Assembly: GCF_020886695.1 (NCBI RefSeq)
Contig: NZ_AP024485.1
Location: 2,365,001 to 2,429,000, forward strand
DNA length: 64,000 nt
Direction: 5' to 3'
DNA from: Pseudodesulfovibrio sediminis
Lineage (GTDB): Bacteria; Desulfobacterota; Desulfovibrionia; Desulfovibrionales; Desulfovibrionaceae
This document shows positions 51,006-54,489 of the stretch, in pieces. The notes below the pieces were generated by a model. The model was given only the letters and a program-made list of their open reading frames with translations. It made no database searches and was not told the origin of the DNA. Numbering within the stretch: position 1 is the first letter of the stretch; each line of letters starts with the position of its first letter. The position numbers and the translations under genes are program-made.

Positions 51006-51365
51006 TTACATTCTGCCAAGGGCTTCGGCCAGCTTCTCGGCGTCAGCCTTGCCGGGGTTGACCGGCAGGGGCATGAGCACTCCAAGGCCTTCGCTCTTCT
51101 CGTGGAATTCTTCTCCATCCATGTCCGTGACCACAGCGGTGTGGGTCATGGCAGATATCTTGACGATCTCCAGCACCAGGGCGAGGGGGGCAAACCCATT
51201 GAGCCCCTCGTCAACCACCACAAGGCTCGGAGGAGTGGCCTTGATACTGTCGATGATGGCTTCGCCCGTGGTGCGTATTTCAACATCCTGGCCGGTTGTT
51301 GCGGCCAGAGAATTCGTGAATTCCGCCAGGGCGTCCGCTCGGGTTGAGGCAACCAGGATGGACAC
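51006..51365 (-). CDS. Receiver-like small protein at the end of the ORP-like operon
   Basis: 119 residues resembling a stand-alone response-regulator receiver: ILVAS at the start, Asp in SLVVVDEGLNG at the phospho-acceptor position, later TAVVTDMDGEEF and VLMPLPVNP. The acidic pair after the first strand and the usual Lys-Pro are absent, so it is probably a pseudo-receiver. GTG start overlaps the NifX stop (TAGTG), so the two genes are coupled. It may link the complex to another signal; not proven. Confidence 0.72.
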   Translation of the reverse strand: MSILVASTRADALAEFTNSLAATTGQDVEIRTTGEAIIDSIKATPPSLVVVDEGLNGFAPLALVLEIVKISAMTHTAVVTDMDGEEFHEKSEGLGVLMPLPVNPGKADAEKLAEALGRM

Positions 51366-51739
51366 TATTGTCCTCCGCCGCAGGTCTGATCAACAGTGAA
51401 AACGGGCAGGCTGTTCAGCAGGAATGCCTGGATGGCCTGGTTCACAGTGGGGGCGCCGGAGCCGTGGTAGACCTCGATGCCGACCTGGTTGAAGCCCATG
51501 AGCGGACGCATGCCCATGCCGCCCGAGATGAGCGCTTTGACCTTGTTGTCAGCCAGATAGTTGACGGGAGCCATGCAACCACCTTGTTCGTGGGGGCAGC
51601 TGGGTACAGTCTGTACGTCTTTGACCTGACCATCTACCACGTCCACCAGGGTGTACATGGCGCAATGGCCGAAATGAGCGTCGATGTTGGCTTCCATGCC
51701 GCCGGGTTCTGCCGTGGGAACGGCGATACGGGTGTTCAT
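51365..51739 (-). CDS. NifX/NifB-type Mo-cluster-binding protein (orange-protein-like)
   Basis: 124 residues from the ATG at 51739 (AAGGAGA upstream); the open frame extends to 51967 without meaning. Typical opening MNTRIAVPTAEPGGMEANID followed by HFGHCAMYTLVDVV, the MTH1175/NifX-like cluster-binding fold. Several His and Cys (HFGHC, CPHEQGGC, DQTCGGG at the C-terminus) could bind a metal cluster. The orange protein of Desulfovibrio, of this family, carries a Mo-Cu-S cluster; whether this copy or the fused one at 53494 does so here is open. Confidence 0.85.
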   Translation of the reverse strand: MNTRIAVPTAEPGGMEANIDAHFGHCAMYTLVDVVDGQVKDVQTVPSCPHEQGGCMAPVNYLADNKVKALISGGMGMRPLMGFNQVGIEVYHGSGAPTVNQAIQAFLLNSLPVFTVDQTCGGGQ

Positions 51740-51759: not shown

Positions 51760-52635
51760 TTATTTGGTGTCGAGCATGGCCGTTATATCCGACCAGGCTT
51801 TTTTGAGTTGTTGGGAGAGCGGACCGTTTTCGAATTCGGTCAGCACCTCTCTGACGAGCATGGCATCCACGACCATTCGGGAGTGGGGGAAACGGCAGAT
51901 TACGGAGTGGCCGTTGGCTTTGCACCATGCCTCGATTTCGTCGGACATTTCGGGGTTGATGTCCCATTTGTTGATGAGCACGGCCACTGTGCTGCGGAAT
52001 CCCTGACAGAGTTCAGCCACGCGTTTGAGGTCGTGCAGACCGGATGGCGTGGGTTCAGTGACAACCACGGCCAGGTCCGTTCCTGCCATGGAGCTGATAA
52101 CCGGGCACCCGATGCCGGGCGAACCGTCACAGACCACCAGGTCCAGTCCCTGCTCTTCGGCTATGGCGCGTGCTTTCTGCTTGAGCAGCGTAACCAGCCG
52201 ACCCGAGTTCTCTTCGCCCGGAAAGAGCTGGGCGTGCACCAGTGTGCCGAACCGGGTGTCGGATACATACCACTGCCCGCAGTGCTTGTCCGGGAAGTCG
52301 ATGGCCTGGGCAGGGCAGAGTGTCACACAAACCTTGCACCCCTCGCAGAGGATGGGGTTGACGCTGTATACATCGTCCTTTTCCACGATGGCGTTGAACC
52401 GACACACGTCCTGGCATTGTCCGCAGGCCGTGCACCGTTCCGGGGCGATGGTCGCCTCGTTGCCGGAAATGAACGCCTCTTCGGCCCGGTGTTTGGGGGC
52501 GAGCAACAAGTGCAGATCCGGGGCGTCCACATCGAGATCGCAAAGAATGGCTTTTTTTGCGAGATGCGCAAACGCCCCGGATATGGAGGTTTTGCCTGCG
52601 CCGCCCTTTCCGCTGATAATGACTATCTCATGCAT
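51760..52635 (-). CDS. ParA/MinD-type ATPase with ferredoxin insert (second copy)
   Basis: 291 residues. P-loop IISGKGGAGKTSISGAFA at the start and DLDVDAPDLHLLL (Walker A' region). Between about 65 and 115 lies a two-cluster insert, CTACGQCQDVC and CEGCKVCVTLCP, typical of the anaerobe ORP-complex ATPases. Walker B is LDLVVCDGSPGIGCPV. The start overlaps the previous gene's stop by 8 bp. In Desulfovibrio the ORP complex is reported to act near ParA and septum placement; that function is transferred by family only. Confidence 0.9.
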   Translation of the reverse strand: MHEIVIISGKGGAGKTSISGAFAHLAKKAILCDLDVDAPDLHLLLAPKHRAEEAFISGNEATIAPERCTACGQCQDVCRFNAIVEKDDVYSVNPILCEGCKVCVTLCPAQAIDFPDKHCGQWYVSDTRFGTLVHAQLFPGEENSGRLVTLLKQKARAIAEEQGLDLVVCDGSPGIGCPVISSMAGTDLAVVVTEPTPSGLHDLKRVAELCQGFRSTVAVLINKWDINPEMSDEIEAWCKANGHSVICRFPHSRMVVDAMLVREVLTEFENGPLSQQLKKAWSDITAMLDTK

Positions 52636-53497
52636 GCTGCACCTCGGTTTTAGAGCGGGCTGCGGCCTTCATGGATGAGTGTAGCTGCGTAAAGGGTTCG
52701 CGCATGGACTCCAGTGATTTGGTAATGATTTCTCCCTTGGAATACGCCTCGGCCACTGCCCGTGAATAGGGGATCTCCGCCCAGATGGGGATATCATTGT
52801 CCCGACAGAAATTCTGGACAGAGTCATCGCCCATGCCGGCCCGGTTGATGACCGCGCCCATGGGGATGTTCAGAGGGCCGAACGCTTCCCATGCCAGTTT
52901 GAAGTCATGGAAGCCGAAGGGAGTAGGCTCGGTGACGAGCACGATGCAGTCGGCATCCATGACCGCATTGATGGCAGGACAACTGACGCCCGGTGGCGCG
53001 TCGATGAGGATGTCCCCCTGCTCCTGAAGAGCGGGGAATTCCTGACGGATGAGACGCATGAGCGGCGGGCTCATGGCTTCCCCTATGCGCAGACGGCCCA
53101 TGATGAAGCGGCTGTCGTCGACACTTCCCCTGCAAATTTCGCCCAGCTCTCGCTGACCCGGTGTGAGTGCCCCGGCAGGGCAGACTTCCAGGCAGCCGCC
53201 GCACCCGTGGCACATCTCAGGAAAGACGAGCAGGGTGTCGGCCATAATGGAGATGGCCTTGAACTGGCAGATGTCGACGCAGGCGCGGCAGAGGGTGCAT
53301 TTCTCCTCGTCCGCCACAGGCACTTCTATGTAGGCCTTGTCTTCGCTTGTGATGGCAGGATTGAGGAAGAGGTGCAGGTTCGGTTCCTCCACATCCAGGT
53401 CAACACAGGTGACCGGAGCGTTCCACAGGGCGGCGAGGGAGGAGGTGATGGTTGTCTTCCCGGTGCCGCCCTTGCCACTGGCAACAGCGTAGATCAC
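52628..53497 (-). CDS. ParA/MinD-type ATPase with ferredoxin insert (first copy)
   Basis: 289 residues, paralogue of the next gene downstream. P-loop AVASGKGGTGKTTITSSLAA, DLDVEEPNLHLFLNP, insert with CTLCRACVDIC and CHGCGGCLEVCP, Walker B DILIDAPPGVSCPAINA and the TEPTPFGFHDFKLA region. It probably forms a heterodimer with the second copy. Start ATG overlaps the DUF134-NifX stop codon (ATGA). Confidence 0.9.
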   Translation of the reverse strand: MIYAVASGKGGTGKTTITSSLAALWNAPVTCVDLDVEEPNLHLFLNPAITSEDKAYIEVPVADEEKCTLCRACVDICQFKAISIMADTLLVFPEMCHGCGGCLEVCPAGALTPGQRELGEICRGSVDDSRFIMGRLRIGEAMSPPLMRLIRQEFPALQEQGDILIDAPPGVSCPAINAVMDADCIVLVTEPTPFGFHDFKLAWEAFGPLNIPMGAVINRAGMGDDSVQNFCRDNDIPIWAEIPYSRAVAEAYSKGEIITKSLESMREPFTQLHSSMKAAARSKTEVQHA

Positions 53498-54408
53498 TTG
53501 TTGCCCCCGGACTGGGCGTTGGGGGTATCAGCCATGGTCACGCCGCCGCTCTTGTATTTTTCCACGGCCTCGCGCACGGTCATGTTGTCCACGTCCTGAC
53601 CCACGCTGATGCCTGCCGCCTTGAGCGCGGAGAATGCCTTGGGGCCGACAAAGCCGGACAGCAATACCGTTGCACCGGCATTGGCCACGTTTTCGGCAGC
53701 CTGTATGCCTGCGCCCTGAGACAAGGACTGTGAGCCGCCGTTATCCACATATTCAACCACTTCCATGGTTTCGGTGTCGACGATGGCAAATCCTCCGGCA
53801 CGGCCAAAGCGGGGATCAACGCGATCGTCCATGGTCGGCCCTTCACTGGTAACAGCTACTTTATTCACAATATTCTCCTTGAATTGTTGCGTATTCGTTC
53901 CACCCTGAAATCTTTGCTGGCGAGGTTGCCCTTGAGCCTGGCCCGTTCCTTGGCCCATGCCCTGGCCACGTCCCTGACGGCCTATGCCGCATCCCTGTCC
54001 GCGTCCTTGTCCTCGTCCCTGGCCCATGCCTCTGCCCTGGCCGCCTATGCAGCGACCTGAGTTCTGTCCATTTCTTCCTGGCATGTCTGCATCTCCTTGC
54101 TGTTTTGAGACGTCGTCTGCCAATTCGTAATGTCCACCTTCAATGCGGATGGCCAGGCCTTGCACCAGCGCCGTGGCAACGGTCTTTCTGGCTTCACCGA
54201 CAATCCGACCAAAGGTGGCTCGGGATACGCCCATTCTTTCGGCGCCCTCGGCTTGGGAAAGTCCCTCGCCATCGGCCAGCCGCAGGGCCTCGAATCCCTC
54301 GCATGTCAAAGCGGCGTCCTTCAATTCCCGCAGGGGAACCCCCTGTGGTTTGTAAAATGTCACCTCGGGTTCCTGTTGGACCACACACCGTTTTTTTCGC
54401 CTACCCAT
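53494..54408 (-). CDS. DUF134 HTH - Gly/Gln/Arg linker - NifX fusion
   Basis: 304 residues and first gene of the operon. N-terminal DUF134 HTH (about 1-100: FYKPQGVPLRELKDAALTC, FEALRLADGEGLSQ, ERMGVSRATFGRIVGEARKT). A low-complexity linker (about 108-170) has GQGRG-type units. The C-terminal NifX domain (from about 181) starts NKVAVTSEGPTMDDRVDPRF, GRAGGFAIVDTETM. An internal AAGGAG lies 6 bases before an in-frame GTG at 53868, so a free 124-residue NifX protein may also be made (see findings). Likely an autoregulator sensing cluster occupancy; inferred. Confidence 0.85.
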   Translation of the reverse strand: MGRRKKRCVVQQEPEVTFYKPQGVPLRELKDAALTCEGFEALRLADGEGLSQAEGAERMGVSRATFGRIVGEARKTVATALVQGLAIRIEGGHYELADDVSKQQGDADMPGRNGQNSGRCIGGQGRGMGQGRGQGRGQGCGIGRQGRGQGMGQGTGQAQGQPRQQRFQGGTNTQQFKENIVNKVAVTSEGPTMDDRVDPRFGRAGGFAIVDTETMEVVEYVDNGGSQSLSQGAGIQAAENVANAGATVLLSGFVGPKAFSALKAAGISVGQDVDNMTVREAVEKYKSGGVTMADTPNAQSGGNK

Positions 54409-54475: not shown

Positions 54476-54489
54476 TGAGCATATGCTCA
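54476..54489. promoter_or_regulatory. 14-bp perfect palindrome upstream of the ORP-like promoter
   Basis: TGAGCATATGCTCA, ending 6 bp from the -35 hexamer; position fits an operator for an activator, possibly the DUF134 domain of the first gene. Confidence 0.55.

Follow-up and report, generated by a model that had tools for sequence, protein, structure and literature searches.

The window, meaning the whole stretch of 64,000 nucleotides of Pseudodesulfovibrio sediminis DNA that was analysed, contains a minus-strand gene in which a DUF134 domain is joined through a linker to a NifX-type domain, with genes for two MinD-type ATPases and a separate NifX protein beside it. The features of this locus are as follows.

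54476 to 54489, no strand assigned: palindrome TGAGCATATGCTCA, probably the operator for the DUF134 regulator (no binding data); one exact copy in the genome
54442 to 54469, minus strand: promoter-like TTGACA-16-TATCTT, by consensus match
53494 to 54408, minus strand: DUF134-linker-NifX ORF; 304 residues as full-length product
54124 to 54405, minus strand: DUF134 domain, helix-turn-helix like, residues 2-95 (Pfam PF02001)
54093 to 54098, minus strand: Shine-Dalgarno (SD) sequence AAGGAG, internal site 1; all 20 long-linker fusions of the genus retain the SD core
54082 to 54084, minus strand: internal start 1, ATG, codon 109; predicted product of 196 residues (Gly-rich segment plus NifX)
53869 to 54081, minus strand: Gly/Gln/Arg-rich linker between the two internal starts; very low pLDDT
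53875 to 53880, minus strand: SD sequence AAGGAG of internal site 2, read from the sequence and noted in the first-pass annotation
53866 to 53868, minus strand: internal start 2, GTG, codon 181; predicted product of 124 residues (NifX/ORP domain)
53551 to 53829, minus strand: NifX / Orange Protein domain, residues 194-286 by Pfam (PF02579; match to 2WFB, E 3e-41)
52628 to 53497, minus strand: MinD-type ATPase with 4Fe-4S domains, Orp3/Orp4-like; GTGA overlap with the fusion gene
51760 to 52635, minus strand: second MinD-type ATPase with 4Fe-4S domains (ORF and Pfam)
51365 to 51739, minus strand: separate NifX gene, 124 residues; ATG at 51739 in the context AAGGAG-6-ATG

The fusion protein met the requirements for membership in both DUF134 (PF02001; 72.6 bits over residues 2-95 against a curated cut-off of 27) and Nitro_FeMo-Co (PF02579; 67.3 bits at full length and 69.7 bits for the 124-residue product, curated cut-off 26.3), and a weaker Pfam match to Sigma70_r4_2 was found in its DUF134 part. 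Membership in MrpORP (NF041136), which demands an Mrp P-loop ATPase domain ahead of NifX and a score of >450 bits, was not met, the score being 23.1 bits and coming from the NifX part only. The translation bore out the description of the linker in the first-pass annotation as rich in Gly, Gln and Arg. Residues 104-179 of the linker had very low confidence in the predicted structure and, as far as that model goes, are probably disordered. Because the first strand of the NifX fold was predicted at residues 183-188, immediately beyond this low-confidence segment, codon 181 was taken as the domain boundary.

It had been proposed that an AAGGAG at 53875-53880 of the minus strand, followed after 6 bases by an in-frame GTG at 53868, would allow a free NifX protein to be made beside the regulator. 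The motif is present exactly as claimed: the spacer is AATATT (6 nt), the GTG is in frame ((54408-53868)/3 = 180, codon 181 of 304), and the remaining ORF of 124 codons (VNKVAVTSEGP...) starts at the domain boundary, two residues before the NifX fold. The equality in length with the separate downstream NifX gene also held (both 124 codons), and the start context of that gene closely resembles that of GTG 53868 (TTCAAGGAGATTGTTATG against TTCAAGGAGAATATTGTG). A further internal site, absent from the first-pass annotation, was found upstream, where AAGGAG is separated by 8 nt from ATG 54084. Codons 109 and 181 were the only internal start codons in the ORF with an SD pairing of -6.9 kcal/mol or better, and the openness of the mRNA within the gene reached the 96th percentile around codon 109 and the 100th around codon 181. 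AAGGAG at 5-8 nt upstream was detected for 4 of the 875 internal ATG or GTG codons in the 58 long ORFs of the window; across all long ORFs such sites numbered five, two of them in the fusion gene and one being the true start of the separate NifX gene. Chance was rejected as the origin of the internal start contexts, on these counts and on synonymous-shuffle tests across representatives.

The loci of relatives were located with an alignment query of genome contigs, a single-sequence query having matched nothing. The D. piger row of one alignment, truncated at an incorrect position, was left out of account. The fused genes are spread over the phylum, with protein identities of about 45-70% and unrelated linkers. 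Among the 95 distinct fused genes compared across Desulfobacterota, the codon at the NifX boundary was ATG in 84 and GTG in 8, 92 in all. For the short-linker fusions, the boundary codon was ATG in 73 of 74 and the SD pairing was -6 or better in 68 of 74. In genera outside Pseudodesulfovibrio the linker is short and unrelated in sequence, and an SD followed by ATG is still found at the boundary. The first-pass annotation had named conservation of this site as a check on its proposal, and the site was indeed kept from Pseudodesulfovibrio to Desulfobulbaceae, Desulfatitalea and Syntrophobacteraceae.

A strong SD was found at the boundary in 20 of 23 representatives (<70% identity); as a control, the nearly invariant methionine of the HTH had a strong SD in just 4 of 19. 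The boundary SD occurred in all three codon phases, with unrelated linkers, and therefore no fixed amino-acid motif accounts for it. For the synonymous-shuffle test, codons were shuffled with local codon usage and the SD of each internal site was compared with expectation. Site 2 gave a Z of -6.6 over 31 representatives and of -5.3 over the 23 representatives below 70% identity, all 23 lying below their own mean, and the joint Z for site 1 was -5.3. The tests on single genes were individually weak, and significance was reached in joint tests only. The boundary start site was unusually unstructured across relatives (KS P 2e-11), and the sequence after the start was AT-rich in them. The sequence-level criterion for a dual-product gene, namely an in-frame start with an SD inside the ORF that is kept in relatives beyond coding constraint, was met.

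MrpORP (DVU2109 type, NF041136) is likewise a fusion of a NifX domain, with a different partner, found in the same bacteria and belonging to the same system. It differs in that no start with an SD was found at the NifX boundary in 18 Mrp-NifX fusion genes; the one positive entry in that set, L313, proved to be a different gene. A published blot of MrpORP-GFP showed a single band of full length. Paralogous DUF134 fusions had also been considered as a clean negative control and were dropped, the picture being mixed: the first six had no signal at the aligned position, 5 of 19 low-scoring ones (MSxxILVAVPS type) had their own AAGGAG or GGGAG with ATG, and nothing convincing as an internal start was seen in most others of the 19. 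For this reason MrpORP and the HTH methionine were taken as controls. The loci L102, L105, L008, L112 and L140 were observed to form a second DUF134-NifX class with a divergent NifX (MSxxILVAVPS) and AAGGAG or GGGAG plus ATG three codons upstream of that domain.

Fused genes with a long Gly-rich linker occur in about 20 Pseudodesulfovibrio genomes and a two-gene arrangement in 8, so the question raised in the first-pass annotation of whether some genomes hold the halves as separate genes is answered in the affirmative. In seven of these 8 split genomes the second gene comprises the Gly-rich segment and NifX, with its start codon at the place of ATG 54084 or close to it; the second gene of the remaining one (G250) opens at the NifX boundary, without the Gly-rich part. 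In the tree of the two domains, whose outgroups are fused, three switches between fused and split are needed, of which well-supported branches force at least two; we infer that repeated fission within the genus reused starts that were already there. In one genome (G254, locus L053), unlike the other members of the genus, a DUF134 gene without NifX was observed next to one joined to NifX through a short linker of the kind seen in other genera.

By comparison of sequences, the better conserved internal start in Pseudodesulfovibrio is the upstream ATG 54084, and therefore two free products, of 196 and 124 residues, are possible. An ATG with the upstream SD core was present at site 1 in 20 of 20 long-linker fusions, and in three genomes (G237, G242 and G245) the encoded residues had changed while the SD was retained. 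The SD of site 2 is mostly the weaker AAGGAT in this genus, its codon is ATT in two fusions, and the site is degraded in several split genomes whose second gene starts at site 1. Because of this weakening and loss, site 1 may have taken over in the genus, and it could be argued that only ATG 54084 is used there, GTG 53868 being weak or a relict. We regard this as unlikely, if still a serious objection. The window gene is unusual in its genus in having the full AAGGAG at both internal sites, and at its site 2 the spacing is ideal as well and the mRNA more open than anywhere else in the gene. Moreover, 19 of 21 long-linker genes have ATG or GTG at site 2, where the SD is still above synonymous expectation (Z -3.2).

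A search of the PDB with the 124-residue product matched the crystallised Orange Protein of Desulfovibrio gigas (2WFB, E 3e-41). In the D. gigas genome (G213), a 242-residue DUF134-NifX fusion contains 2WFB over 117 of 117 residues, beginning at an internal ATG preceded by AGGAG, and among the seven NifX loci of that genome 2WFB is encoded by this fusion only. A sequencing slip is ruled out by the sister genome G214, in which the same fusion is present. From the internal ATG the product has a calculated mass of 11,805 Da, the native Orange Protein monomer being reported as 11.8 kDa. No single argument for the existence of the free domain in cells is stronger than the identity of 2WFB with the internal-start product, with the reservation that the comparison does not include the native N-terminus. 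Thus the free half is known in D. gigas as the Orange Protein, which says nothing on the full-length protein or on P. sediminis.

According to the title of Bursakov 2004, as cited in PMC6345978, the Orange Protein was isolated from D. gigas, and an S2MoS2CuS2MoS2 cluster has been reported for it in work cited there. Its function was called unknown in 2019 (PMC6650914). The NifX domain of the window resembles this protein in its domain type and in its neighbourhood of MinD-type ATPases, and the coding sequence of the D. gigas protein is the 3' portion of a DUF134 fusion gene, read from an internal ATG, as proposed for the window; however, the published accounts consulted treat it as a stand-alone protein. 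In D. vulgaris, Orp8 (DVU2108) is listed as a gene of its own (PMC6345978).

Upstream of the fusion gene, the 14-bp palindrome consists of the half-sites TGAGCA and TGCTCA with a 2-bp centre. A palindrome matching at 11 or 12 of the 12 positions was found in 16 of 23 representatives, against 0.09% of shuffles. Its distance from TTGAC is fairly regular in relatives; in most genera it lies downstream of TTGAC, over the -10 region, and in Pseudodesulfovibrio upstream of the -35. The whole genome from which the window was taken has a single TGAGCAWWTGCTCA, upstream of the fusion gene, and the D. gigas genome a single TGCTCAWWTGAGCA, upstream of its DUF134-NifX gene. On this pattern the full-length DUF134-NifX protein is inferred to be probably an autoregulator, without binding data, and the conserved palindrome at the promoter is only indirect support for sequence-specific DNA binding by DUF134. 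It was also observed that the palindrome (TGAGCATATGCTCA / TGCTCATTTGAGCA) stands upstream of most fused genes, for example near 1500 in L010, and that many unfused DUF134 genes carry it as well.

Taken together, it is very probable, in the absence of expression data, that one mRNA yields at least two proteins, a 304-residue regulator and an internally initiated, free NifX/ORP domain. The 304-residue regulator would come from initiation at 54408 and would probably bind, through DUF134, the palindrome in the promoter of its gene. Further initiation inside the ORF, at ATG 54084 and/or GTG 53868, would give the NifX/ORP domain without the DNA-binding domain, as 196 or 124 residues. The free domain would be a metal-sulfur cluster protein of the Orange Protein type, made beside the MinD-type ATPases of the operon. 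It is by inference that initiation rather than cleavage is held to yield the free product, and the same applies to which site dominates in P. sediminis. Use of GTG 53868 in that organism is predicted, not measured, and is less certain than the dual-product principle. The first-pass annotation had inferred that one gene gives a DNA-binding sensor and a free cluster-binding partner; its dual-product part is supported comparatively, but cluster binding by the NifX domain of the fusion rests on homology to the Orange Protein alone, and cluster sensing by the full-length regulator is inferred.

The free product might instead come from a separate shorter transcript, made from an internal promoter and using the same start codons; the data do not exclude this and the same start contexts would be needed, but a consensus scan found no promoter inside the fusion gene, which is weak evidence, and we consider such a transcript improbable. 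Proteolysis within the linker, with the start-like motifs as incidental, is plausible insofar as residues 104-179 are predicted to be disordered, but it is highly improbable, since it leaves unexplained the SD conserved in different frames, the synonymous constraint, the conserved ATG, the open mRNA and the fission at internal start sites. Equally hard to credit is that the sites are fossils of an old gene fusion and now out of use: given that both arrangements occur, an SD and start could have come down from a formerly separate gene, but an unused SD would have decayed, and these are kept beyond synonymous expectation across the phylum with unrelated linkers.

In-frame internal starts that free a C-terminal domain are already known as a kind. 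In Shigella Spa33 (PMC4832279), one ORF likewise gives a free C-terminal domain beside the full-length protein by internal initiation in one frame, and in type I CRISPR systems Cas11 likewise arises as a free C-terminal domain from an in-frame internal start in the gene of the large subunit (PMC11899642, PMC7684278). In both cases the small product is reported as a partner of the large one in one assembly (PMC4832279, PMC11899642, PMC7684278). Unlike these, DUF134-NifX would give a large product predicted to regulate transcription and a small product of the metal-cluster type, and the two are not known to act together. This instance appears to be undescribed in the literature searched, in which no paper on NifX fusions was found for DUF134 / UPF0251.

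Tentatively, the gene may be a self-tuning cofactor sensor, an idea that could well prove wrong. The full-length DUF134-ORP on its single operator would read the state of the metal-sulfur cluster in its ORP domain, free ORP from the same mRNA would compete for or deliver the cluster, and the ratio of internal to full-length initiation would set the response. If so, the Orange Protein would be the detached sensor half of a regulator. The Orange Protein gains a genetic origin and a functional lead, being encoded as one half of a regulator gene from a start of its own, and DUF134, a domain of unknown function, becomes linked both to a metal-cluster domain and to a defined palindrome in the promoter of the gene that encodes it. 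In many sulfate reducers the free protein would go unnoticed if only the longest ORF were annotated.

At 53494-53497 of the window, GTGA joins the stop codon of the fusion gene to the GTG start of the first MinD-type ATPase gene. This overlap suggests translational coupling, which the free NifX product could feed too.
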